NCBI GenBank assembly: GCA_022360075.1 | Contig: JAKSDN010000619.1 | Span: forward strand, 1-11,573 | DNA length: 11,573 nucleotides | Reading direction: 5' to 3' | From: Kiloniellales bacterium | GTDB lineage: Bacteria > Pseudomonadota > Alphaproteobacteria > Kiloniellales > JAKSDN01 | Shown: piece after piece, positions 1 to 11,573 of the stretch | Numbering within the stretch: position 1 is the stretch's first letter | Layout of the letters: every line of letters starts with the position of its first letter | Position numbers and translations under genes: made by a program | The notes under the pieces: generated by a model | Told to the model about the DNA's origin: nothing | Database searches by the model: none | What the model saw: the letters and a program-made list of their open reading frames with translations, nothing else

Positions 1-978
1 ACCGTCTCGCGGGTGCTGAACAATCCCGAGTCGGTGCGGGCCGAACGCCGCCTACGGGTGGAGCAGGCGATCGAGGATCTCGGCTACTTGCCGTTCGCGG
101 CTGCGCAATCTCTGAAATCCGGCCGATCCTTGACCATCGGCGCGATCTTCCCGCGGCTCGACAGCGTGCTCTTCGGCAGCGTACTGGACGAGATGCAGTC
201 CTGGCTCGACGAGGCCGGCTACACGCTGACCGTTATGACCATGGACTACGATATCGGCGTCGAAGCCAAGCGTGTGCGGCAGCTCATTGCCCGCGGTGTC
301 GATGCTCTGATCCTGGTGGGCGGCTGGCATGCCCCGGAGACCGAGGAGATCATCGCGCGCCACGAACTGCCGCGGGTGAACGTCTGGTCCTGGCATGCGG
401 ACAGTCCGCATGTTCAGATCGGCTTCTGCAACCGTGAAGCCACGCGCTCGGCCGCGTCCCATCTCTGCGCGCTCGGCCATCGGCGCATCGGCATGATTTC
501 CCGAGATCCCGAGGGCAACGACCGTGCCGCGGCCTGCGTCGCGGGCGTCCGGGATGCACTGGAGGACGCCGGTTTGCCGATCGACCCCGATTTGTTTGCC
601 AAGGCCGGCTTCGGGATCGATGAGGGCGCGATCGCCTTTTCCAGCCTGATGAGCCGGACGGACCCACCGACCGCGGTTGTCTGCGCGTCGGATTTGTTTG
701 CCTTCGGTGCGCTGCGCGAAGCCCGCCGCCGCGGTCTGGGCGTGCCGGAGGATGTATCGATCACCGGCTTCGACGATTCGGAGCTGTCCCAGATCACCAC
801 CCCGGCGCTGACCTCAGTGCGCACGCCCCGCCAGCAAATGGCCGCACGCTGTGCCCAGAGCATCCTCGGCTATCTCACCGAAGGCCGGGCCATGTCGTCG
901 CTGCGCTTTGCCACGGAACTCGTCGTGCGCGACAGCACCGCGCCCGCCGCCTCGCCTCGCGCTTGCGGGGGCAGGTGA
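1..978 (+). CDS. LacI-family transcriptional regulator (5' end outside window)
   Basis: This is a cytoplasmic repressor or activator of the LacI/GalR family, which binds an operator as a dimer and responds to a small ligand. The reading frame is open from base 1. The first visible residues, TVSRVLNNPESV, are the second half of the LacI helix-turn-helix and lead into the hinge (LGYLPFAAAQSLKSGRS), so only about 20 N-terminal residues should be missing. A periplasmic-binding-protein-like sensor domain follows and runs to the end. It carries the typical RGVDALILVGG, LGHRRIGMI, AVVCASDLFAFGALREARRRG and PEDVSITGFDDSEL motifs. The gene converges on the lyase operon with a 28-bp gap, so it is not cotranscribed with anything visible here. 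Its target, possibly sugar or carboxylate genes to the left, cannot be read from this window. The truncation is a window edge and not a mutation. Confidence 0.95.
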   Translation, partial: TVSRVLNNPESVRAERRLRVEQAIEDLGYLPFAAAQSLKSGRSLTIGAIFPRLDSVLFGSVLDEMQSWLDEAGYTLTVMTMDYDIGVEAKRVRQLIARGVDALILVGGWHAPETEEIIARHELPRVNVWSWHADSPHVQIGFCNREATRSAASHLCALGHRRIGMISRDPEGNDRAAACVAGVRDALEDAGLPIDPDLFAKAGFGIDEGAIAFSSLMSRTDPPTAVVCASDLFAFGALREARRRGLGVPEDVSITGFDDSELSQITTPALTSVRTPRQQMAARCAQSILGYLTEGRAMSSLRFATELVVRDSTAPAASPRACGGR

Positions 979-1006: not shown

Positions 1007-3721
1007 TTAAGTTACGTAGGCACAGTCCGAGGCCGGCGTCCGTGTATCCATGTTGCGGCCGCGGTTCAGGTGGTCGTCGATTTCGGCCGCGGCGCCGATC
1101 ATGCGGCCGTATAGGAATACGGTGAAGGCGGCGGTCTCGAGGTCGCGCTCACTCAGGTTTCCGGCCTTGTAGTCCTTCCACAAAAGCGCGAGGAGTAACG
1201 CCGCGATGACCGCATCGACGTTGACGCAGAATACGTAGGGGGTCGCGCCGACGTCGTAGAGGGCCTGGACGAGTTCCCGGTAGAAATGATGAAAGGCGTT
1301 GTAGTCGCCGCGCTGCCCCAGGAACTCGGCGATGAAGCGTTCGCGCGGGTCGTAGTTGACCGGCTTTCCCTTGAAGACGGGATGATGAACGCCGGGCAGG
1401 GCGCGAACGCTGGTGGTTCCCAGTTCCTTCGCCCTCGCTTTTTCCGCCTTGAAGGCTCTCGCGAAGGACGTTGCCATATCCTTCAGGTCCAGACCGTGAT
1501 CCGGGTCTGCAGGATCCTCCAGGCCGGAGTCCTTGAACTGCTCGAGCAAGAGGGCCATGCCTTCGAAACCGTTGCCGCCGTGGCTGTAGCCCGTGTGGGT
1601 CAGAAATCCGACCATGGCCTTGTTGATCTGCACCCGCCCCGGTGTCTGTGGACCGTCGGCCGCCACCGCGCCTTTCGCCCCTTGGGCGGAGATCGCGCCC
1701 GGCCCGTTGGAGATCAGCAAGCCGATCAGGATCTGCAAGGGGCGCGCCTCCGCTTCCGTCGGCTTCTTGCCGGTCATGGCAAGGAAACAGAGGTCGGCCA
1801 TGGTCCACGCGCCGAAGCGTTCCTCACGCGGAATGCCGTAAAGGGAGCCGTGCTCGTGATGCCGGCCCGGTATCGAGGCGCCGACCATCACGCCGTATAG
1901 CCGCAGATACCAGGGCAGTGTCTCCGCGGTCAGACGGCTGATCCGCTTCCGCATCAGCGGTGCCCAGGCAATGGACGTCGATATCGCTGCCAGGATCGCG
2001 TCCCGCGAGGGCCGGCCACCGAGACCCTCGAGGAATCTGAGGAACACGGACTCGGCGCCGTGCTGGCGGACGGCCTGCAACATGGCCTCGGGTCGCGGGT
2101 CATCCGCCTCCGCCTCGCCCGCCATGAAGAGAGCACGGGTCGCGTCGTCCACATTGATCCCCGAAAGGTCGAAGCCCTCGTCGCTGCCGTCCTTTAGTCC
2201 GGAGTAGACGAAAAGGTCGATCAGCGCCCGGGTGCAGGCGAGCGTCCGTTCCACCCGCTTCGGCCCGACAATCGAGGCCGCAGCCGCCATGATGGTGTTT
2301 GGCGAGTTGCCAGCCTCGCGCGCGGCATCGGCGGCCTGCAAGATCGGGTCGCCTACGAGGTTCACTTCGGCCGCCACCGCCACGTCCAGCAGCGCCCGGT
2401 CGTTTTCGCCGGCGATCTCGTGCACCAAGGGTAGGGCGAAGTTCGCTTCGAGCGGTTCCAATGCAAGGTCGAGGACTGAGTGGCCGTGGACGCTGGTCAC
2501 CTGCGTCTTGGGGTCCATCACGCTGGCGCCGGACTTGTCTTTCATCGTCTGGCGCGCGATCACCGCGCCAACCTGCCGACCGAGTGCGGCGATCTGCTCA
2601 GCATAGGGTTCGGGTGCTGCTTTGGGCACAAGGGCCACTTCCTTCGGAAGCGCCAGCCCTTGATCGTTGGCGATCCAGGGTTTCAGGGCGAGGCTCCCCC
2701 TCGATTCGAAATCCGGCTCGACGCCGCTGAGCGCCATCACGGCGCTCAGCGCAGCCGGTATGTCGGCGATGTTCGTCACCACCGCACCCTTTTTCGAGAC
2801 CACCCGGTTATCCGCCGTGAAGATCCCATCCACGCCGAAGGCTTCCATGAACCAGCCCTCTTTGTCCTCGGCTCTGTCGCCGGAGCCGGCCATGGCGCCG
2901 GCATGGCCGACGGCGCGGGTCAGCTTGGACTTCCAACGGCCGACGACGCAGGCGACAACCGGCTTGCCGAAGTTCAAACCGTGCTCGTAGTAGCCGCCCG
3001 GTTCGGCATAGAGCACGGCCGCCTTGGAGCGCTCGTCGTTCTGGAAAGCGTGCGCGAAGTCGCGGGCGGCGTAGTGGATGTAAACGTCCTTACCGGATGA
3101 GACGAGGGTGGTGGTACCCCAGCCCTCGGTCGCCAGATATTGGGCGATGGTGGTGGTGAAGCCGCCCGAGTTGGAGAAAATCGCCACCGAGCCCTTGTGC
3201 AGCGACTCCTCGGGATGGTCGCCGCCGAGGGCGCCCCCGATGCGCACCCGGTTCCAGGAGTCCGCTACGCCCAGGCAATTGCCGCCGAATACGTCGATCC
3301 CATTGGCCTGCGCCATCGCCCGGATCTCGCGCGCGTCATGCACGGCGATTTTCTCGGTGATGATGACGATCTTCTCGAGGCCCGGATTGACGCGTACCAG
3401 TTCGGCCACGCCGTCGCGCACGCCGGACGGCGGCAAATAGACGACCCCGCTGTTGAAGTGGTGTCCGGCGTCCAAGCCCTCGCGTACGTTGTTGAAGACC
3501 GGGATGTTGCCCGCCGGCGTCTTGAGGACTTGGCCGCTCCGCCCGGGCGACGTTCCGAAAACGATATTGCTACCCGAGAAGGCATGGCTGGTCGGCGATA
3601 CCTGCCGCGACTCGCCGCCCAGGATATTCAGAACGCAAACCCGATCGTCACGGGTCGCGATCTCGGCCAATGATCGGATGCCGAGATAGTAGGGGAAAGC
3701 CTCGATGCCCTGGCGATGCAT
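1007..3721 (-). CDS. aclA: ATP-citrate-lyase-type large subunit (CoA-ligase alpha + citrate-synthase-like domain), divergent
   Basis: A 904-residue cytoplasmic enzyme, predicted to work with the adjacent ATP-grasp subunit to form citryl-CoA (or an analogue) from ATP, CoA and acid and cleave it to acetyl-CoA and oxaloacetate. Residues about 1-345 match succinyl-CoA-synthetase alpha: CoA-binding GTSPGRSGQ (56-64) and PVFNNVREG (74-82), GGNCLG (146-151), SNSGG (183-187) and the phospho-histidine loop GHAGA, with His273. Residues about 620-904 match the citrate-synthase-like C-terminus of ACLY: SNGPGAIS (671-678), YSHGGNG (712-718), GVHHPVFKG (777-785) with His780, YDPR (790-793) and NVDAVIA (834-840) with Asp836, ending SDCAYV like ACLY's own C-terminus. 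About 270 residues between these parts (350-620) have no counterpart in the classical ~610-residue AclA. An AGGGGAGGA ribosome site precedes the ATG. The family is clear; citrate as the real substrate is inference. Confidence 0.88.
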   Translation of the reverse strand: MHRQGIEAFPYYLGIRSLAEIATRDDRVCVLNILGGESRQVSPTSHAFSGSNIVFGTSPGRSGQVLKTPAGNIPVFNNVREGLDAGHHFNSGVVYLPPSGVRDGVAELVRVNPGLEKIVIITEKIAVHDAREIRAMAQANGIDVFGGNCLGVADSWNRVRIGGALGGDHPEESLHKGSVAIFSNSGGFTTTIAQYLATEGWGTTTLVSSGKDVYIHYAARDFAHAFQNDERSKAAVLYAEPGGYYEHGLNFGKPVVACVVGRWKSKLTRAVGHAGAMAGSGDRAEDKEGWFMEAFGVDGIFTADNRVVSKKGAVVTNIADIPAALSAVMALSGVEPDFESRGSLALKPWIANDQGLALPKEVALVPKAAPEPYAEQIAALGRQVGAVIARQTMKDKSGASVMDPKTQVTSVHGHSVLDLALEPLEANFALPLVHEIAGENDRALLDVAVAAEVNLVGDPILQAADAAREAGNSPNTIMAAAASIVGPKRVERTLACTRALIDLFVYSGLKDGSDEGFDLSGINVDDATRALFMAGEAEADDPRPEAMLQAVRQHGAESVFLRFLEGLGGRPSRDAILAAISTSIAWAPLMRKRISRLTAETLPWYLRLYGVMVGASIPGRHHEHGSLYGIPREERFGAWTMADLCFLAMTGKKPTEAEARPLQILIGLLISNGPGAISAQGAKGAVAADGPQTPGRVQINKAMVGFLTHTGYSHGGNGFEGMALLLEQFKDSGLEDPADPDHGLDLKDMATSFARAFKAEKARAKELGTTSVRALPGVHHPVFKGKPVNYDPRERFIAEFLGQRGDYNAFHHFYRELVQALYDVGATPYVFCVNVDAVIAALLLALLWKDYKAGNLSERDLETAAFTVFLYGRMIGAAAEIDDHLNRGRNMDTRTPASDCAYVT

Positions 3722-3727
3722 GATCCA

Positions 3728-3736
3728 TCCTCCCCT
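3728..3736 (-). promoter_or_regulatory. Ribosome binding site overlapping the upstream stop codon
   Basis: On the minus strand AGGGGAGGA lies 6 bases before the large-subunit ATG and overlaps the TAG stop of the ATP-grasp gene (TAGGGGAGGA). Ribosomes finishing the small subunit are therefore placed on the start site of the large one. This suggests translational coupling and near-equal synthesis of the two subunits. Confidence 0.8.
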
Positions 3737-5015
3737 AATTCGCCGGGTGCAGACCGAGATGACTGGCGATGGCCTCGCGCCCGCCGCTCTTCATCCACTG
3801 GTCCACTTTCTTGGCATAGTTCACGACCTCCGAGATGGCGCTGTCGAAGCCGAAGAAACGGTACGGAAGGCCAAGGCTGTCGCAGGTCTCGCCGAGCGCG
3901 CCCATGCCGCGGACCAGATTCGGTCCGCCGCGACCGACCACCACGTAAAGCGGCGTTGGGCCGTGATCGGCGAAGTACTGGCGCAGCGCGTCGCCCATCG
4001 CCCGGAAGGTCTCGAAGATGTCAGTGTTGTTCGACTTGCCCCCAATGATGAACAGCACGTTGGCCTGTGCGAGGAAGTGCCGGTAACAGATGCTCGCGAC
4101 CGACTTCATTTTCTCGTAGGGAGGATTGCCGCCGAAGTCCGACGAGATGATCGCCGCATCTCCGAGCACCTCGGTGACGAGGCTGTTGGCTCCACCGCCG
4201 AACGTGGGCGCGAGAATCGTCCCTTTGTCATTGATGACAAAGACATCGGACTGGCCCTGATGGGTCCGAAGCTGGTTGACCTCCTGCTCAAAGGCGGAAA
4301 CGTCGGCCGCAAAGAGGTGGTCCGGCAGACCCAGCCGCGCAACCCGCGGATCGTCGCGGTCGAAGCCACACTTGAAGTCGCAGGCGACCGGCGTGAGTCG
4401 GCCGCCGCGTCCCGGCATCATGCGGATCGGGTTCAGTTCCAGGGCGGTCATGCCGTAGTGTTGAACGAGTTCCCACAGCTTCGGCAGGTGTTGCACGAGA
4501 GGCGAGATGATCTCCTTGGGCGCCTTGATGTCGGAGAGCGCGTTCGCGACGACGAAGGCCTTGAGTCCGGTCAAGGCCTCGAACGGCACGGTCGCGATGT
4601 CGTCCTTGTCCAACTCCTCGATGTCGACACCGCCGCGGTGGGTCAGGGTCATGGTCGGCGCTCGATAACGGGTGTCATCGGTGATCGAGAAGTAGACTTC
4701 GTTCTCGGCCGGAATCGCGCTCTCGAAGGTAACGCCTTGGGCCTTTGCGTAAGCGTTGCCGTGGCGGTGCTCGGCGAAGTAGAGACGCTCCTTCTCCTGC
4801 ATAGCGGTCTGCAGATCACTGGCGCGGCCGATCAGGCCAGACTTTCCCTTCTTGCCGACACCGCCCTTGAAGAAGGGCTTGATGAACACGGACCCATGGC
4901 GATTGATGAGGTCTTGAACCTCGTCCTCCGTCGCCTCGGGTCCGAGCACTTCGGCGGTTGGATAGCCGACGTGGCGCAGCAGCTTGGCGCCGTAGAGCAT
5001 TCCGGTGATTTGCAT
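3735..5015 (-). CDS. aclB: ATP-citrate-lyase-type ATP-grasp subunit (succinyl-CoA synthetase beta-like)
   Basis: A 426-residue ATP-grasp subunit that should bind ATP and Mg, phosphorylate the histidine of the large subunit and help form the acyl-CoA intermediate. It matches the N-terminal part of animal ACLY along its length: VFIKPFFKGGVGKKGKSGLI (43-62, compare ACLY KRRGKLGLVG), HRGGVDIEELD (126-136), ALELNPI with Glu193 and Asn195 (metal site), CDFKCGFD (212-219), FGGGANS (272-278), FIIGGKSNN (322-330) and GRGGPN (361-366). The length is close to known AclB (about 400). The frame continues upstream to a TTG at 5033, but the ATG at 5015 is preferred because GGGGAGGG (5024-5031) sits 8 bases before it and the extra residues would be that ribosome site translated. 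It lies 13 bp upstream of the large-subunit gene. Homology is secure; the exact substrate acid is not. Confidence 0.9.
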   Translation of the reverse strand: MQITGMLYGAKLLRHVGYPTAEVLGPEATEDEVQDLINRHGSVFIKPFFKGGVGKKGKSGLIGRASDLQTAMQEKERLYFAEHRHGNAYAKAQGVTFESAIPAENEVYFSITDDTRYRAPTMTLTHRGGVDIEELDKDDIATVPFEALTGLKAFVVANALSDIKAPKEIISPLVQHLPKLWELVQHYGMTALELNPIRMMPGRGGRLTPVACDFKCGFDRDDPRVARLGLPDHLFAADVSAFEQEVNQLRTHQGQSDVFVINDKGTILAPTFGGGANSLVTEVLGDAAIISSDFGGNPPYEKMKSVASICYRHFLAQANVLFIIGGKSNNTDIFETFRAMGDALRQYFADHGPTPLYVVVGRGGPNLVRGMGALGETCDSLGLPYRFFGFDSAISEVVNYAKKVDQWMKSGGREAIASHLGLHPAN

Positions 5016-5031: not shown

Positions 5032-5082
5032 AATAGTCCGCAGGATAACGGCCCTACCTTTCGGCGCGCTTTCAGGAGAAGT

Positions 5083-5123: not shown

Positions 5124-6044
5124 TTAGCGTCCCTTCTGGAGCAAGTCTCGCGCTTCGCCTCGGACCAGCGAGACGAAACGCTGTGCGGAGGCAGAATGAT
5201 CGAGGCTACGGCACGCGAGCAAGATCTGCGCTAGGAGCCGTGGCGGCTCTGCGAGCGGACGGTAGACGACCCCATCGAGCTGCATCCCGCCGAGCGATTC
5301 CGGCACGATGGTCACCCCGAGCCCCGCTGCGACCAGATTGAGAGTCGCGACGACGCGCGGTGCTTCCTGCTCGATCCGTGGTGTGAAACCGGCGTAGTGG
5401 CAGGCCCCGACGATCTGATCGTACAGACCGGGCCCCGACGAGCGGCGATAGAGCACGAATGGCTCCGCTGCGAGATCGACGAGAGGAAGGGGCGCGGTGC
5501 CCTCCTTCGTCGAGAGTCGATGATCGCTTGGCAAGGCCGCGAACATCCGCTCTTCCAGCAACGCGTGCACCCTGACGCCCTCGCCGTCAGGCACGGGCGA
5601 ACGGATGAAGGCCACGTCGAGCCGTTCCGCCCTCACTGCGGACATGAGGTCGCCGGTGCCGCTTTCCTCCAGAACCAGCGATACCCGGGGATAGTTCTCG
5701 CGGAACAGCCGAATGACGCGCGGGACGAAGGGATGGAAAGGTGCGGAGCTGGTGAAGCCCACGACGATCCGCCCCTGCTCGCCGCGCGCCGTCCGCTTGG
5801 CCTTCGCCAACGCGCCGTCGATCTCGTTCAGTATCCGACGGGCATCGAGAAGGAGCGTTCGGCCGGCGTCGGTCAGTTCGACGCCGCGTGGTTTCCGTCG
5901 GAAGAGCTGTACGTCGAGTTCCCGTTCCAGGGCGCGTATCTGTTGACTGAGGGGCGGTTGCTGGATTCCGAGGCGTTCTGCCGCCCGGGTCACATGGCCT
6001 TCCTCGGCAACGGCGACGAAGTAGCGGAGATGTCTCAGTTCCAT
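5124..6044 (-). CDS. LysR-type transcriptional regulator
   Basis: A 306-residue DNA-binding regulator of the LysR family, cytoplasmic and probably tetrameric. Residues 1-60 form the winged helix-turn-helix (MELRHLRYFVAVAEEGHV, then AAERLGIQQPPLSQQIRALE and LFRRKPRGVELTDAG), followed by a linker helix. Residues about 90-296 form the inducer-binding domain (GRIVVGFTSSAPF, RLDVAFIRSP, VAAGLGVTIVPES). The frame extends to a TTG at 6059, but the ATG at 6044 gives the canonical MELRHLRYF start. Neither start has a clear ribosome site. The gene lies upstream of the lyase genes on the same strand and is divergent from the small gene at 6158. Either neighbour could be its target, and the inverted repeats between it and the small gene are candidate operators. 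Regulation of the lyase by a pathway metabolite is plausible but inferred. Confidence 0.92.
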   Translation of the reverse strand: MELRHLRYFVAVAEEGHVTRAAERLGIQQPPLSQQIRALERELDVQLFRRKPRGVELTDAGRTLLLDARRILNEIDGALAKAKRTARGEQGRIVVGFTSSAPFHPFVPRVIRLFRENYPRVSLVLEESGTGDLMSAVRAERLDVAFIRSPVPDGEGVRVHALLEERMFAALPSDHRLSTKEGTAPLPLVDLAAEPFVLYRRSSGPGLYDQIVGACHYAGFTPRIEQEAPRVVATLNLVAAGLGVTIVPESLGGMQLDGVVYRPLAEPPRLLAQILLACRSLDHSASAQRFVSLVRGEARDLLQKGR

Positions 6045-6105
6045 GGCATATCGTTTCAATATGAATTCTGCATATACTATATATTAGACCTAATATCATG
6101 CCATG
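6042..6105. promoter_or_regulatory. Divergent control region with a nested pair of inverted repeats
   Basis: The LysR/DUF1127-like divergent region is strikingly AT-rich from about 6048 to 6118 compared with the GC-rich genes around it. CATGGCAT (6042-6049) and ATGCCATG (6098-6105) form a perfect 8-bp inverted repeat around a 48-bp spacer; the left arm contains the LysR ATG. Inside the spacer ATATTAG-AC-CTAATAT (6081-6096) is a perfect 7-bp dyad with a 2-bp centre. LysR regulators typically bind such dyads beside divergent promoters. TATACT (6073-6078) and TAATAT (6091-6096) resemble -10 boxes on the plus strand, but no matching -35 box was found, so no promoter is assigned. Confidence 0.5.
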
Positions 6106-6394: not shown

Positions 6395-6742
6395 TCGCAG
6401 ACCGATGAGGTTGACGCGAAGCTGCCTACCTTCCCAATAGGGTTAAGGGGCCTGGACGAGCGCCTGAAGCATATGTCGTGGGAGCCGATGCCAAGAGCCT
6501 GATTCGAAAAAACGCCCTGAGTTCAATGAGTTGATACAGCTCAGCTGTCATCACCGGGCTTGACCCGGTGATCCAGAGTGACGTTTTGATCAGGCGATGC
6601 CTGGATTGCCGGATCAAGTCGGGCAATGACAAGTGAAGAGGGGATTCTCTCCAACTTCTTGTTCAAGAAAAGATCACTCTGGGTCAGGCTCTACGGGCAT
6701 GCCAACGCTTGCAGAGCGAGGCAAAGCGCCGCACGCGCCACT
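6395..6742. other. Gene-poor stretch of 348 bp
   Basis: No convincing gene on either strand. It holds a weak hairpin shortly after the small gene (CCTTCCC at 6429-6435, loop AATA, GGG-TT-AAGG to 6448, no T-run), the 86-bp palindromic repeat at 6546-6631, and a short dyad TTCTTG-TT-CAAGAA (6656-6669). A minus-strand frame of 68 codons (6426-6632) runs through the repeat and looks like repeat translated by chance. Confidence 0.6.
6546..6631. repeat. REP-like palindromic intergenic element, 86 bp
   Basis: The element starts with TGTCAT and ends with ATGACA. Its two outer 31-base arms are inverted copies of each other at about 24 of 31 positions, by hand alignment. The left arm also folds on itself: ATCACCGGG (6550-6558), loop CTTGA, CCCGGTGAT (6564-6572), a perfect 9-bp stem. 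The right arm folds as ATTGCC (6605-6610) with GGCAAT (6622-6627) plus two inner pairs. The GGGCTTGACCCGG-type core is what is seen in dispersed intergenic repeats of many Alphaproteobacteria. Copy number cannot be judged from one window. It could end or stabilise the transcript of the small gene upstream. Confidence 0.75.
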
Positions 6743-7187: not shown

Positions 7188-8606
7188 CTAACTCACAGAG
7201 GTCGCCTGCAATGCCTCGGAGTCGGCGGAGGCTTCCGGCAGCACGACGCGCACGAGCAGGCCGCCCGATGGCGCCGTGTGAAGCGCCACGTCGCCGCCGT
7301 GGCGTTCAGCGATCTCCTGCACGATCGCCAGTCCCAGGCCGCATCCCCCCTCGGCCTGCTCGGAGAGCCTCACGAAGCGGTCGAAGACGGCCACGTGCTT
7401 CTCCTCGGGGATCCCGGGACCGTCATCCTCGACCTCGAGAACCACTTCGCCCGCGTCCCTAGCATCCGTTCTGACGGATATGCAGGTTCCGTCGGGACAA
7501 TATCTGAGGGCATTGTCGATCAAGTTGGCCAGCATCTCGCGAACGAGCGTCGGATTGCCCTTTACCCAAAGGCCCCGCGTCGGCCCCTCGAATCCCAGAT
7601 CGAATTGCTTGGCAAGCGCCTCCGGCACCCATTCACCGGTCAGTTCAGCCGCGAGCTCGGCAACATCGAACCTCTCCTCGTGCTGTGGCTCGCTGCTGTC
7701 GTGCTGGGCGCGTGCCAGGTTCAGGAGCTGATTGGCAAGGCGTGAGGAATGCTGCGTCGCGCTCAGGATCTTGCCGAGGGATTTCTTGGACTCCTCGCTA
7801 TCGGCTTCCCGCAGCGCCAGCTCCGACTGGGCCTGTAGCGCGGCCAGCGGAGTCCGCAACTGATGCGAGGCATTGGCGATGAACTGCTCCTGGCTGGCTA
7901 TGCTCTCCTTGAGGCGTGCCAATAGCTGGTTGATCGCCGCCACGACGTCGCGGATCTCCTGCGGCATCGGGTGGGTAATCGGACGCAGATCCTCGTAGGA
8001 CCGGCGCCGAATGGCCTCCTGTAGACGCTTCAGCGGGGCCAGGCCCTGGGTGATGCCGATCCAGGCGAAGAACAGGGCGACGCATATGAGCAGGACCAGC
8101 CGCGCGCCCGCGCGTATGACCGATTCCGTGATCACCTGCTGTCGGCCGTGGCGTGTCTGGCTCACCTGGACGGTGACCCAGCCGTTGATGTCTCGTTCGG
8201 CGACAAGAAAAGACAGGACAACGACGCGAACGGGCTCATTGCGATACTCGGCGTTGAAGAAGAGTGGAATGCCGCCTTCGAGGATCTGGTCCTCGGGAAT
8301 CTCCGGAAGGTCGTAGTAGCCGGTGAGAAAGGCGCTGTCTGGCCCCGTCACTTTGTAGAAGATCTCGTCATCCGTGCCTGCTGTCCTCAAATCGAGCGCA
8401 CTCTCGGCCACAAGGTCGCCGCCGGTTGCCACCACCTGTTCAGAGATGCCGAGCGCGAGGCCGACGATGAAGCGGTCATGCAGGGAATCTGCGGTTCCGC
8501 GAGCGCTTATGTAGGCTTCATAGAGGATCGCGGTGGAGAGTAGAACGCCGGGCACGAGGGCCCACGCCAGGAGTCGACGGCGTAGCGATCTTTCGCCCCC
8601 GATCAT
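7188..8606 (-). CDS. tctE: TctE-type sensor histidine kinase
   Basis: A 472-residue inner-membrane kinase that senses a ligand outside the cytoplasm and phosphorylates TctD. Order of parts: membrane segment about 12-31; periplasmic sensor about 35-165 with FYKVTGPDSAFLTGYYDLP (83-101), typical of the TctE-type sensor domain (2CSK_N); second membrane segment about 167-187; HAMP linker (APLKRLQEAI, 190-199); H-box FIANASHQLRTPL with His248; N-box NLIDNALRY (361-369); DDGPGIP (394-400) and GCGLGLAI (421-428) of the ATPase domain. All catalytic residues look intact. Its ATG overlaps the tctD stop (ATGA), so the two are translationally coupled. In known TctDE systems the signal is a tricarboxylate, possibly with the binding protein; the ligand here is inferred from the divergent tctC. 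Confidence 0.93.
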   Translation of the reverse strand: MIGGERSLRRRLLAWALVPGVLLSTAILYEAYISARGTADSLHDRFIVGLALGISEQVVATGGDLVAESALDLRTAGTDDEIFYKVTGPDSAFLTGYYDLPEIPEDQILEGGIPLFFNAEYRNEPVRVVVLSFLVAERDINGWVTVQVSQTRHGRQQVITESVIRAGARLVLLICVALFFAWIGITQGLAPLKRLQEAIRRRSYEDLRPITHPMPQEIRDVVAAINQLLARLKESIASQEQFIANASHQLRTPLAALQAQSELALREADSEESKKSLGKILSATQHSSRLANQLLNLARAQHDSSEPQHEERFDVAELAAELTGEWVPEALAKQFDLGFEGPTRGLWVKGNPTLVREMLANLIDNALRYCPDGTCISVRTDARDAGEVVLEVEDDGPGIPEEKHVAVFDRFVRLSEQAEGGCGLGLAIVQEIAERHGGDVALHTAPSGGLLVRVVLPEASADSEALQATSVS

Positions 8607-9271
8607 TGAGTGTCGAGCAAATAGCCGAGCCCGCGCACGGTCCGTATGGCGACTTGCGGGTGAGAGAGCTTCTTGCGCAAGCGGTGAACGTAGATCTCGA
8701 TCGACGACAGGCTGGCCTCGTCGTCGAAATTGAATATGGACTCCGCGATGTGCTCCTTGCTGACGACCTTGCCGCAGCGGCGTATCAGCACCTCGAGCAA
8801 GCTCCTCTCACGCGGGGTCAGGTCGATATCCTGATCTGCGATACGACAGATCCTGCTCCGCGTATCGAAGCTGACGACACCGTGGGTGATGACGGCCGAC
8901 TTCGCCTCGCCACCGCGGCGCCGCAGCATGGCACGCACCCGGGCCTCCAGCTCTTCCAAGGCGAACGGCTTGGTCAGGTAGTCATCGGCACCCAGGTCAA
9001 GCCCCGCGACACGTTCCTTGATCTCGGTGCGCGCGGTAAGGATCAGGACGGGAGAATCCGAGCCGCGACGACGGAGGTTCCGAAGCACCTCCAGGCCGTC
9101 CAACTTCGGTAGCGTGAGATCCAGAATGATCAGATCGTAGCTCTGCATGGCGAGAACCTGATCGGCACAGTCGCCTTCCTTGAGCACGTCTACCGCATAG
9201 TCCTGCTTTGCCAGCGACCGCGACAACGCATCCGCCAGCGTTTCGTTGTCCTCGACCAATAGCAGCCGCAA
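8603..9271 (-). CDS. tctD: TctD-type OmpR-family response regulator
   Basis: A 222-residue transcription factor activated by phosphorylation. The receiver domain (1-115) has Glu7-Asp8, the phospho-acceptor Asp51, Thr79 and Lys101 (YLTKPF). The OmpR-type winged-helix domain (about 125-220) shows LTPRERSLLEVLIRRCGKVV, IEIYVHRLRKKL and the terminal TVRGLGYLL. The start is an uncommon TTG at 9271, supported by GGGAGGA (9280-9286) placed 8 bases upstream and by the canonical MRLLLVEDN beginning; no in-frame ATG gives a better start. The gene is divergent from tctC, so it very likely binds in the 174-bp gap to activate the transporter genes and perhaps its own operon. Confidence 0.94.
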   Translation of the reverse strand: MRLLLVEDNETLADALSRSLAKQDYAVDVLKEGDCADQVLAMQSYDLIILDLTLPKLDGLEVLRNLRRRGSDSPVLILTARTEIKERVAGLDLGADDYLTKPFALEELEARVRAMLRRRGGEAKSAVITHGVVSFDTRSRICRIADQDIDLTPRERSLLEVLIRRCGKVVSKEHIAESIFNFDDEASLSSIEIYVHRLRKKLSHPQVAIRTVRGLGYLLDTQ

Positions 9272-9445
9272 GACCCCTGTCCTCCCGTCGGTCGCTTCTG
9301 TTGGCGACCCCTGATCCGGTATTTTAGCTCAATCTGCCTTGTGAAAGCTATTTGACAGGTATGCGCGGTAGCGTGACGGCATTGCGAGGGCGATTGTCGC
9401 TCCGCCAAAACCAAGACAGCCCTTGTGGCGAAGGGAGGTAACGTC
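9272..9445. promoter_or_regulatory. Divergent tctD / tctC promoter region
   Basis: A 174-bp gap feeding tctDE leftwards and tctC-tctA rightwards, the expected place for TctD binding. On the plus strand TTGACA (9352-9357) is a perfect -35 hexamer, but nothing close to a -10 consensus stands 16-18 bases on, as expected for an activator-dependent promoter. On the minus strand TAAAAT (9321-9326) is a good -10 box about 50 bases before the tctD TTG, again without a strong -35. A short inverted repeat GGTCGC / GCGACC (9290-9295, 9304-9309) lies in the tctD leader. No clear TctD direct repeats were recognised. Confidence 0.5.
9431..9439 (+). promoter_or_regulatory. Ribosome binding site of tctC
   Basis: AAGGGAGGT, a near-perfect anti-16S match, ends 6 bases before the ATG at 9446. 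It rules out the in-frame GTG at 9425, which lies upstream of it. Confidence 0.85.
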
Positions 9446-10552
9446 ATGAATTCAAGAAGAGTTCTCTTAGACCGACGCATAGCGCTGGCCGCCGTTGGCG
9501 TTGCTGCCCTTGGTCTCCTGGGCCTGACCGGCACACCGGCATTGGCCGTAGACATGTCCGGCAAACGCATCGAATGGATCATTCCCTTCAAGGAAGGCGG
9601 CGGATCCGACACCTGGGCCCGCTTTTACGCGCCTCAGGTCGCAGGCAACCTGCCCGGAAGCCCCGTGATCGCCGTCAAGAACATCCCGGGGGGTGGCTCG
9701 ACGAAGGGTGCGAACCAGTTCCAATCCCGTGCGAAGCCCAACGGCCTGACCATCCTCGGGACGTCCGGCTCGACCCAGTTTCCCTACCTTCTGGGCGATC
9801 GCCGGGTGCGTTACGAATACAAGGACTGGCGGGTCGTCCTTGCGACACCGACGGGTGGCGTCGTCTATGTCAACCCGGACCTCGGCGTGGCATCCGCCGA
9901 CGACATGACCAAGCTGAAGGACGTGGACCTTCGTTACGGCAGCCAGGGCGCCACGTCGCTCGATCTCGTCCCGCTTCTCGCCTTCGAACAGCTCGGTCTC
10001 AACGTCAAGGCGGTGTTCGGAATGAAGGGCCGCGGTGCCGGCCGGCTCGCCTTCGAGCGCGGCGAGACCAACATCGACTACCAGACCTCGTCGGCCTACC
10101 TCAAGAAGGTGACGCCACTGGTCGATGGCGGCAAAGCCGTACCGATCATGAGCTGGGGTGCGCTCGACGAACAGGGAAACCTCGTTCGCGACCCGACCTT
10201 CCCGGATCTGCCTCACTTCGTCGAGGTCTACGAGAAGGTTCACGGCAAGGAACCGTCGGGCGAGTGGTTCGAGGCCTGGAAGGCATTCTTCATCGCCGGA
10301 TTCGCCGCCCAGAAAATGGTCTTCCTGCCGAAGGACACGCCAGACGACGTGCTGCAGGCTTGGCGTGACGCCGCGGCCAAGACCATTGGGGCGCCCGGCT
10401 TCAAGGAGGAGTCGCAGGCTGTGCTCGGCACCTATCCGCAGAAGGTCGGCCCCGATGCGGAGCTGCTGCTGGATACCGCGATCAACGTCGATCCGGATGC
10501 CAAGGAATGGGTGCGGAGCTGGCTCACCGAAACCTACAACGTCAAGTTCTGA
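9446..10552 (+). CDS. tctC: TctC-type extracytoplasmic solute-binding protein (Bug family)
   Basis: A 368-residue periplasmic receptor of a tripartite tricarboxylate transporter; it captures a carboxylic acid and hands it to the TctA/TctB membrane part. An export signal occupies residues 1-34: arginines at 4, 5, 10 and 11, a hydrophobic stretch from 12 to 27, and likely cleavage after ALA (32-34). SRRVLLD at 3-9 resembles a twin-arginine motif. The mature part shows the family pattern: IEWIIPFKEGGGSDTWARF, KNIPGGGSTKGANQF, ILGTSGSTQFPYLLGD, YGSQGATSLDLVP, FLPKDTPDDV. It is somewhat longer than the usual 320 residues, with an extended C-terminus. First gene of the operon with tctA and divergent from tctD. 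Family is certain; the ligand (citrate, tricarballylate or another acid) cannot be read from sequence. Confidence 0.93.
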   Translation: MNSRRVLLDRRIALAAVGVAALGLLGLTGTPALAVDMSGKRIEWIIPFKEGGGSDTWARFYAPQVAGNLPGSPVIAVKNIPGGGSTKGANQFQSRAKPNGLTILGTSGSTQFPYLLGDRRVRYEYKDWRVVLATPTGGVVYVNPDLGVASADDMTKLKDVDLRYGSQGATSLDLVPLLAFEQLGLNVKAVFGMKGRGAGRLAFERGETNIDYQTSSAYLKKVTPLVDGGKAVPIMSWGALDEQGNLVRDPTFPDLPHFVEVYEKVHGKEPSGEWFEAWKAFFIAGFAAQKMVFLPKDTPDDVLQAWRDAAAKTIGAPGFKEESQAVLGTYPQKVGPDAELLLDTAINVDPDAKEWVRSWLTETYNVKF

Positions 10553-10616: not shown

Positions 10617-11573
10617 ATGCTTGACAGTGCGCTCGTCGCGCTCGGGAACATCGCCAGCGGCGTCCATCTTCTCTATCTGATCGGTGGCGTCTTCCTGGGG
10701 CTTGCGGTTGGGATCTTCCCCGGCCTCGGCGGGATCGTCGGCCTTTCCCTTCTGCTCCCATTTCTCTACGGCATGGATCCCACCTCGGCGCTGGCGATGT
10801 TGATCGGCCTCGTCGTCGTGATCCCCACGTCAGACACCTTCACCTCCGTCTTGATGGGGATACCGGGCTCCAGTGCCTCTCAAGCGACGGTTCTCGACGG
10901 ATTCCCGCTCGCCAAGAAGGGCGAAGCGGCCCGGGCGCTGGGTGCCGCCTTCTCCGCATCGTTGTTCGGCGGCTTGCTCGGCGCCTTGATCCTGACGGTT
11001 TTCGTTCTGGTCGCCCGCCCCGTCATTCTCCTGTTTGGCTCGGCCGAGCTCTTCATGCTGACGGTTCTTGGCCTCAGCATGGTCGGGGTCATGGCCGGCT
11101 CGAGCATTGTGAAGGGTCTGGCGGCCTGTGGCGTGGGCCTGCTGATCGGCGGTATCGGTGGCGCGCCGGCCACCGGCGAATACCGCATGATCTTCGATCT
11201 GGACTACCTCACCGACGGCGTACCGCTCGTCGTGGTCGGCTTGGGCATCTTCGCAATCCCGGAGATCGTCGACCTCCTGCGGCAGAACCGATCGATCGCT
11301 GGCGGGGCGACGCTCGGCAAGGGCTGGCTCGACGGCCTGCGGGACACCATCCGCCACAAATGGCTCTGCGTGCGCTGCGCCGGTATCGGCTCCATGGTCG
11401 GCGCGCTGCCGGGTCTCGGCGGCAGTGTCGTCGACTGGATCGCCTATGGCCACGTCGTGCAGACCTCGAAGGACAAATCGCAGTTCGGCAAGGGCGATAT
11501 CCGCGGGGTCCTGGCGCCGGAGTCCGCCAACAACGCCAAAGAGGGCGGCGGTTTGATCCCGACACTGCTGTTC
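10617..11573 (+). CDS. tctA: TctA-type transporter membrane subunit (3' end outside window)
   Basis: The large inner-membrane subunit of a tripartite tricarboxylate transporter, which moves the acid inward using an ion gradient. 319 residues are visible of a family usually near 500. The ATG follows GGGGAGGGA (10605-10613) by 3 bases. The family signatures are clear: GIFPGLGGIVGLSLLLPFLY (32-51), YGMDPTSALAMLIGL (51-65), GIPGSSASQATVLDGFPLAK (81-100), and in the second half GALPGLGGSVVDWIAYGH (262-279) and APESANNAKEGGGLIPTLLF (300-319). The two PGLGG motifs mark the repeated halves of TctA. Several hydrophobic segments are visible (about 20-50, 58-80, 110-140, 145-180, 202-218). It follows tctC by 64 bp with no tctB between; tctB may lie beyond the window. 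The frame is intact to the last base. Confidence 0.93.
   Translation, partial: MLDSALVALGNIASGVHLLYLIGGVFLGLAVGIFPGLGGIVGLSLLLPFLYGMDPTSALAMLIGLVVVIPTSDTFTSVLMGIPGSSASQATVLDGFPLAKKGEAARALGAAFSASLFGGLLGALILTVFVLVARPVILLFGSAELFMLTVLGLSMVGVMAGSSIVKGLAACGVGLLIGGIGGAPATGEYRMIFDLDYLTDGVPLVVVGLGIFAIPEIVDLLRQNRSIAGGATLGKGWLDGLRDTIRHKWLCVRCAGIGSMVGALPGLGGSVVDWIAYGHVVQTSKDKSQFGKGDIRGVLAPESANNAKEGGGLIPTLLF

Follow-up and report, generated by a model that had tools for sequence, protein, structure and literature searches.

A Candidate Type II ATP-Citrate Lyase with Two Tandem Citryl-CoA-Lyase-Like Modules and Its Probable Link to Tricarboxylate Use in Proteobacteria

Introduction

ATP-citrate lyase (ACL) is commonly treated as a diagnostic marker for carbon fixation by the reductive tricarboxylic acid (rTCA) cycle (PMC9560492). 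A form called type II ACL was postulated by Hugler and Sievert (2011; as cited in PMC3522073, PMC6315080, and PMC6783814), and PMC6783814 reports citrate cleavage in Magnetococcus marinus MC-1 and names two genes as the postulated type II enzyme. Planctomycete sequences have been placed between citryl-coenzyme A (CoA) synthetase/lyase and type II (PMC5459899). Here, we describe a two-gene pair of this kind in contig JAKSDN010000619.1 of the Kiloniellales bacterium assembly GCA_022360075.1; the whole stretch analyzed, 11,573 nt, is referred to as the window. An annotation made from the letters of the window (the original prediction) had taken the pair for a divergent ACL-type enzyme of a likely heterotroph. 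We found that its large subunit carries two citryl-CoA-lyase-like modules in tandem, and we consider it probable that the pair is a type II ACL serving heterotrophic growth on tricarboxylates.

Results

Identity and Relatives of the Pair

Both open reading frames held up on re-analysis, with a large subunit of 904 amino acids (aa) and a small subunit of 426 aa encoded 13 bp apart (Table 1). The open frame of the small subunit reaches further, to a TTG at position 5033; the ATG at 5015, as originally named, is the likelier start because GGGAGGG sits 8 nt 5' of it and the methionine it encodes is invariant in all 13 aligned relatives.

The small subunit scored 50.7 bits against the Pfam family Citrate_bind (PF16114; cut-off 26.8) and also matched ATP-grasp_2. 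Its best PDB match was citryl-CoA synthetase (6hxq_B), followed by ACL and ACLY. Residue counts for the large subunit were based on 340 near-full-length rows (325 distinct sequences) gathered from a protein search, named relatives, and the loci described below; the phosphohistidine position of the CoA-ligase half, His 273, was present in all of them. Identity to the MC-1 proteins was 57% over 904 residues for the large subunit and 70% over 422 for the small one, and the named relatives of the large subunit also include Candidatus Endoriftia persephone and further tubeworm symbionts. This full-length kinship bears out the suggestion that the pair might belong to the divergent "type II" form discussed for some Alphaproteobacteria. 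As in type II ACL, the two genes are adjacent and the large subunit is about 900 aa long. On sequence grounds, the pair is a member of this already known, postulated family and belongs to a separate proteobacterial branch of it.

The pair could also be a succinyl-CoA or malyl-CoA synthetase misread as an ACL, and a fall inside such plain synthetases had been named at the outset as the result that would speak against an ACL. JGI labels many relatives as "succinyl-CoA synthetase alpha subunit", and the N-terminal half gives sub-cut-off matches to NCBIfam synthetase models. All of these matches, however, were far under the cut-off: the curated succinyl-/malate-CoA synthetase models were missed by wide margins (117 versus 336, 53.8 versus 370, and 25.4 versus 604 bits). 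With Citrate_bind over cut-off in the small subunit and two extra citrate-synthase-like modules behind the CoA-binding half of the large one, this explanation is already contradicted and is hardly tenable.

Relatives were sought in 5.8 billion proteins, where 7997 candidates were scored, 2919 of them at E ≤ 0.001; the best 120 were 79–95% identical. Small-subunit patterns run against 84,980 species genomes yielded 321 stretches, 307 of which were confirmed, and the best 80 of these (L001–L080) were used as loci for comparison. Their hosts are Alpha-, Beta-, and Gammaproteobacteria, e.g., Halomonas, Sinorhizobium, Mesorhizobium, Paracoccus, Variovorax, Azohydromonas, Thauera, Aromatoleum, and Caballeronia. 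The closest relative, L001, comes from genome G001. Across 398 genomes of its phylum, with G001 among them, 39 had a match to large-subunit residues 341–904 at E ≤ 1e-20; MC-1 is one of these 39.

In an unrooted tree of 47 large subunits, all of type II, 15 rows (Magnetococcia, tubeworm symbionts, and related metagenome-assembled genomes) were split off by a branch with 100% support in the Shimodaira–Hasegawa-like approximate likelihood ratio test (SH-aLRT); the opposite side held the window together with all 31 locus rows. The proposed phylogenetic check covered type II, where it sets the window apart from the MC-1-type rows; a search of 299 genomes of the phylum for type I ACL sequences to include gave none over the PF24948 cut-off. 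Near the window, rows from the gamma- and betaproteobacterial Halomonas, Variovorax, and Azohydromonas were interspersed with alphaproteobacterial ones, which suggests horizontal transfer. Plasmid-borne copies were found in Sinorhizobium, Gemmobacter, Polymorphobacter, Microvirga, and Paraburkholderia (among 60 of the 120 records).

Two loci were binned outside the Proteobacteria: L016 (6.0 kb, Anaerolineae) and L029 (3.0 kb, Spirochaetes), with best segments 79% and 82% identical to the small subunit of the window. These copies are as near to the window as the proteobacterial ones and are probably binning errors rather than transfers.

Architecture of the Large Subunit

The large subunit is composed of a synthetase-like half followed by two tandem citryl-CoA-lyase-like modules, CSH1 and CSH2, the first of which is degenerate. 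Its roughly 290 extra residues are explained by CSH1 preceding CSH2. The original prediction had both subunits aligning with ACL over their whole length; the ACL type stood, whereas for the large subunit, single-sequence searches placed the synthetase alpha family over residues ~26–300 only, and residues 635–897 aligned weakly with a citryl-CoA-lyase model. PF00285 was found in CSH2 of 18 of the 21 aligned sequences, but not in that of the window.

Residues ~390–622 are absent from ordinary ACL and were recognized via profile and structure comparison. CSH1 matched CSH2 at 97.5% in a profile comparison. Against a profile of six citryl-CoA-lyase-like rows, the match was 94% for CSH1 and 98% for CSH2; five rows (without L171) gave 93% and 98%, and the three reverse-strand rows alone gave 73% and 96%. 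In a comparison with three of the six rows, the CSH1 match went down to 2%, with CSH2 at 95%. The sequence link between CSH1 and citryl-CoA lyase thus depends on profile depth. Neither the CSH1–CSH2 match nor the fold match of CSH1 rests on these rows; the best fold match was to the Hydrogenobacter citryl-CoA synthetase/citryl-CoA lyase structures (6hxq, 6hxp). When the whole chain was superposed on those of ACL and ACLY, root-mean-square deviations reached 14–21 Å, and hence single-domain matches alone were used.

A hidden Markov model search of PDB with the C-terminal module alone returned weak citrate-synthase pieces (best E 0.55), so the module link rests on profile–profile and structure comparison. 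Profiles of 24 citrate synthases from host loci, picked by motif, matched the C-terminal module at 27–28% and the middle module at 0.2%. Since this direct comparison proved too distant, the link to citrate synthase goes via the citryl-CoA-lyase-like proteins, whose own match to it is 98.7% (with a profile including one faulty row of six). Among the best-ranked matches in the open-access literature, no doubled ACL module was described; Hugler and Sievert (2011) lay outside that search.

Kept and Lost Catalytic Residues

All four motifs listed in the original prediction (GRGGPN, FGGGAN, GHAGA, and NVD) were present. The aligned relatives varied at only two motif positions: one Lys occurred at the final N of GRGGPN, and the middle residue of NVD was either V or I. 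Thirteen large-subunit residues were invariant over the 340 rows: E123, H273, H709, H714, H780, D791, R793, D836, R873, D883, H884, R887, and R894. In profile alignments, H714 corresponds to the His of IHGG, H780 to the His of GFGH, and D836 to the Asp of NID. In the small subunit, N335, T337, and R368 (numbered from the TTG) correspond to N346, T348, and R379 of ACLY and were invariant in 13 of 13 sequences. The synthetase half thus looks fully equipped, as judged from its conserved residues.

The citryl-CoA-lyase module is present with His 780 and Asp 836, and the cleavage module appears to be without its first catalytic His: position 672, which aligns with this residue of citrate synthase and citryl-CoA lyase, was Asn in 340 of 340 rows. 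The surrounding motif reads [ST]NGPG, compared with [DE]HG in citryl-CoA-lyase-like proteins and DHE in citrate synthases. The counterpart in CSH1, position 455, was Leu (195 rows), Gln (131), His (13), or Arg (1), and the His of HGG is replaced in CSH1 by Pro 487 in 339 of the 340 rows. We take Asn 672 to be equivalent to ACLY H900, a correspondence based on the citryl-CoA-lyase-like profiles and on the ACLY sequence. H900, the His at the cleavage-site position of ACLY, is named in PMC10115795.

These replacements would suit an arrangement in which the C-terminal modules are structural or allosteric and cleavage takes place in the synthetase half, an idea compatible with the other readings discussed here. 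The Asn at position 672 throughout and the loss of the His positions from the other module in most rows favor it. So does PMC10115795, which argues for an allosteric role of the citrate-synthase-like domain of human ACLY, with no essential part in catalysis. The same source, however, frames this as one of alternative models, and the role of the domain is debated. Moreover, His 714, His 780, Asp 791, Arg 793, Asp 836, and Arg 873 were unchanged in all 340 rows, which is beyond the needs of a scaffold. We regard a purely structural or allosteric role as doubtful, if worth bearing in mind.

Central Metabolism of the Hosts

The proposal of heterotrophic use rather than autotrophy was supported by both the genome content and the gene neighborhoods of the relatives. 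In 20 host genomes of relatives from the window branch, citrate synthase and 2-oxoglutarate dehydrogenase E1 were each found in all 20, and the alpha subunit of 2-oxoacid:ferredoxin oxidoreductase (OAFO) was below cut-off in 13. The genome check on an rTCA cycle, suggested in the original prediction, covered these three enzymes.

The MC-1-type comparison set comprised 12 genomes (MC-1 and 11 others, completeness not given) with copies 54–57% identical to that of the window. In these, OAFO was over cut-off in 11 and detected in all 12 at 1e-100; E1 was found in one. The two ACL branches are thus set apart by the central metabolism of their hosts. The single E1-positive genome was that of MC-1 itself, which carries both an OAFO-type oxidoreductase and E1.

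Gene Neighborhoods

Gene calls for the window and the 80 loci came from our own codon-usage script and were clustered by BLAST. The counts below are without the window; the loci are of unequal length, and their flanks total 1.07 Mb. Neighbors included TctC (36 loci), TctD (35), TctE (33), TctA (33), and TctB (17, for one of two TctB-like clusters), as well as 4HBT thioesterase (18), an extracellular binding protein (16), PrpF (15), and TcuA, TcuB, and malic enzyme (4 each). Any tripartite tricarboxylate transporter (TTT) or TctDE gene was detected in 46 loci, and any TTT, TctDE, PrpF, or Tcu gene in 52. TctA was located directly upstream of the pair on the same strand in 16 loci. Based on the background of 70 TctA and 25 PrpF genes in 101.2 Mb of 18 host genomes, 0.74 TctA and 0.26 PrpF genes were expected in the flanks; the 33 and 15 observed represent ~44-fold and ~57-fold excesses, the significance of which is overstated by Poisson values because the loci share ancestry.

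The window's type of TctC and TctA recurred in six loci (55–72% identity). PrpF directly followed TctA in all six, and a PrpF-family isomerase gene is therefore predicted just beyond the window end. Eight of the nine PrpF-family neighbors tested were over the NCBIfam cut-off for 4-oxalomesaconate tautomerase, and TctC-type binding proteins, taken as a group, are not known to be restricted to a single substrate. Both points would fit a pair that applies the same activate-and-cleave chemistry to another tricarboxylate: 2-methylcitrate, a hydroxycitrate, or the 4-oxalomesaconate-linked 4-carboxy-4-hydroxy-2-oxoadipate. The counterparts of ACLY N346, T348, and R379 are kept, however, and TcuA/TcuB, associated with tricarballylate, lie near the pair in four loci; in L010, the one locus tested, both were over cut-off for tricarballylate oxidation. 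In addition, the PrpF superfamily includes proven trans-aconitate isomerases (PMC11495376), and the strain of the MC-1 relative shows citrate cleavage (PMC6783814). A substrate other than citrate seems improbable to us. Among the best-ranked matches in the open-access literature, no bacterial ACL was tied to tricarballylate use; Hugler and Sievert (2011), outside that search, may mention heterotrophic members.

Other neighborhoods bear on the fate of the product. An enzyme of the same family could be chiefly biosynthetic, converting citrate (imported or from the oxidative TCA cycle) to the acetyl-CoA from which storage polymer or lipid is made, while malic enzyme provides NADPH, as with ACLY in animals. 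In the Natronohydrobacter locus L008, the row behind the pair encodes a thioesterase, malic enzyme, acetyl-CoA acetyltransferase, acetoacetyl-CoA reductase (over its NCBIfam cut-off), and pyruvate dehydrogenase E1, with malic enzyme to acetoacetyl-CoA reductase at 14459–18726. The counterpart in L059 (1–4128) adjoins TctCBA and consists of malic enzyme, acetyl-CoA acetyltransferase, and a truncated acetoacetyl-CoA reductase; L078 has beta-ketothiolase and malic enzyme. The occurrence of malic enzyme near the pair in four loci and of citrate synthase in every host examined also speaks for this use, and the host genera Azohydromonas, Halomonas, and Variovorax store polyhydroxybutyrate. Polymer-type context is nevertheless confined to 2–4 of the 80 loci, compared with 46 loci with uptake or sensing genes and the marked excess of TctA and PrpF. 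A chiefly biosynthetic role is, in our view, rather unlikely; it is also compatible with a catabolic one, as an imported tricarboxylate can feed polymer.

The 4HBT gene counted above encodes a small hotdog acyl-CoA thioesterase; in 15 loci, it immediately follows the large-subunit gene (e.g., L008, L018, L034, and L067). A solute-binding-protein-like gene (cluster c8, 16 of the 80 loci) adjoined TctDE, e.g., in L046, L056, L058, L063, L067, and L073–L075; its product is perhaps a periplasmic partner of the TctE sensor.

Features of the Window

The coordinates of the pair, its parts, and the neighboring genes are given in Table 1. In the six closest relatives among the loci, TctA is 659–675 aa long. 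Two imperfect palindromes, TCACCGGGCTTGACCCGGTGA and GATTGCCGGATCAAGTCGGGCAATGA, were spotted by eye at 6545–6635, where no gene was recognized; they resemble repeat elements of Alphaproteobacteria. Scans for Rfam families, tRNAs, promoters, and terminators gave nothing of use.

Table 1. Coordinates of the candidate ACL pair, its modules, and neighboring genes in the window.
Feature	Position	Strand	Remarks
Large subunit, type II ACL (predicted)	1007..3721	minus	904 aa; ATG start
Synthetase half, succinyl/citryl-CoA synthetase alpha-like	2702..3721	minus	residues 1–340; phospho-His position 273 (GHAGA), Glu 123
CSH1, first citryl-CoA-lyase/citrate-synthase-like module	1856..2554	minus	residues ~390–622; boundaries approximate; catalytic His not kept
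CSH2, second module	1010..1855	minus	residues ~623–904; His 714, His 780, Asp 836, Arg 873 kept
Asn 672 codon	1706..1708	minus	aligned with first catalytic His of citrate synthase/citryl-CoA lyase (His of DHG)
Small subunit (ATP-grasp, citrate-binding), type II ACL (predicted)	3735..5015	minus	426 aa; PF16114 2e-13, PF08442 1.3e-12
LacI-family regulator	13–978		DNA-binding part (N-terminus) cut by window start; match to PF00356 begins at profile position 20
LysR-type regulator	5124..6059	minus	upstream of ACL pair
TctE-like sensor kinase	7188..8606	minus	2CSK_N domain
TctD-like response regulator	8603..9271	minus	best NCBIfam model TctD, score below its cut-off
TctC-type binding protein, TTT	9425..10552	plus	
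TctA membrane subunit	10617..11573	plus	gene cut by window end

Discussion

Taken together, we favor a type II ACL that serves heterotrophic growth on tricarboxylates. Computation gave the family, the order of the domains, the residues retained or lost, and the genome context of the relatives, and from these we infer a reaction, a substrate, and a catabolic direction. The TctC/TctA transporter would import tricarboxylates under TctDE control, and these would be converted to citrate inside the cell where needed. Citryl-CoA would then form from citrate and CoA with the use of ATP, via phospho-His 273, a step we assign to the small subunit and the synthetase half of the large one. CSH1 is predicted to pair with CSH2 inside one chain. 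The predicted products of the overall reaction are acetyl-CoA and oxaloacetate, and the acetyl-CoA may be routed to storage polymer in some hosts.

Several observations weigh against this interpretation. With Asn in place of the first catalytic His throughout, cleavage may be slow, different, or elsewhere. The open-access literature found reports no activity for any member of the branch of the window. OAFO-type alpha subunits were over cut-off in seven of the 20 hosts, including the genome of the closest relative. No transporter, TctDE, or PrpF/Tcu genes were found in 28 of the 80 loci, several of which are on short contigs. The scores of the PrpF neighbors as 4-oxalomesaconate tautomerases mean that the substrate of these neighbors may not be aconitate. 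Finally, the neighbors in L008 and L059 may favor acetyl-CoA supply to storage polymer (polyhydroxybutyrate) there.

A more specific proposal, which we see as evenly poised between right and wrong, is that in type II ACL, the fusion of an active and a dead lyase module makes a homodimeric site asymmetric, that the enzyme works without the first catalytic His, and that one entire alpha-, beta-, and gammaproteobacterial branch of it is dedicated to tricarboxylate use rather than carbon fixation. If the fused-pair part of this is true, the holoenzyme is probably a 2+2 assembly of ~286 kDa (2 × 96.5 + 2 × 46.4) instead of 4+4. Two features were unexpected: the doubling of the citryl-CoA-lyase-like module and the absence of one catalytic His across the family. 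A tandem module with a natural His-to-Asn change offers a direct test of the part played by the citrate-synthase-like domain in ACL: cleaving citryl-CoA itself or just steering the enzyme. Furthermore, a heterotroph branch with citrate synthase and 2-oxoglutarate dehydrogenase implies that ACL can mislead as an rTCA marker in metagenomes.

Compared with known systems, the pair is most readily set beside the type II ACL of MC-1 and the tubeworm symbionts, with which it shares the two-gene layout, the length, and the Asn at position 672. The branches differ in their hosts (OAFO in 11 of 12 MC-1-type genomes versus 7 of 20, and E1 in 1 of 12 versus 20 of 20) and in the tricarboxylate-uptake neighbors of the window branch. 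Type I ACL (Chlorobium AclAB, 6hxj; human ACLY) likewise has an ATP-grasp/citrate-binding subunit, a CoA-ligase half with phospho-His, and a citryl-CoA-lyase module; it has, however, one such module per chain (the alpha subunit of 6hxj is 617 aa long) rather than two in tandem, and keeps the His at the cleavage site. The Hydrogenobacter citryl-CoA synthetase and citryl-CoA lyase (6hxq, 6hxp) provided the best PDB sequence matches for both subunits, but there synthetase and lyase are separate proteins, whereas in the window they are fused and the lyase module is doubled. The PrpF-family/TarA aconitate isomerases and the tricarballylate-oxidizing TcuAB could plausibly act ahead of the pair, supplying cis-aconitate and through it citrate; here, they are neighbors in 15 and four of the 80 loci, respectively, with PrpF named 4-oxalomesaconate tautomerase by NCBIfam.

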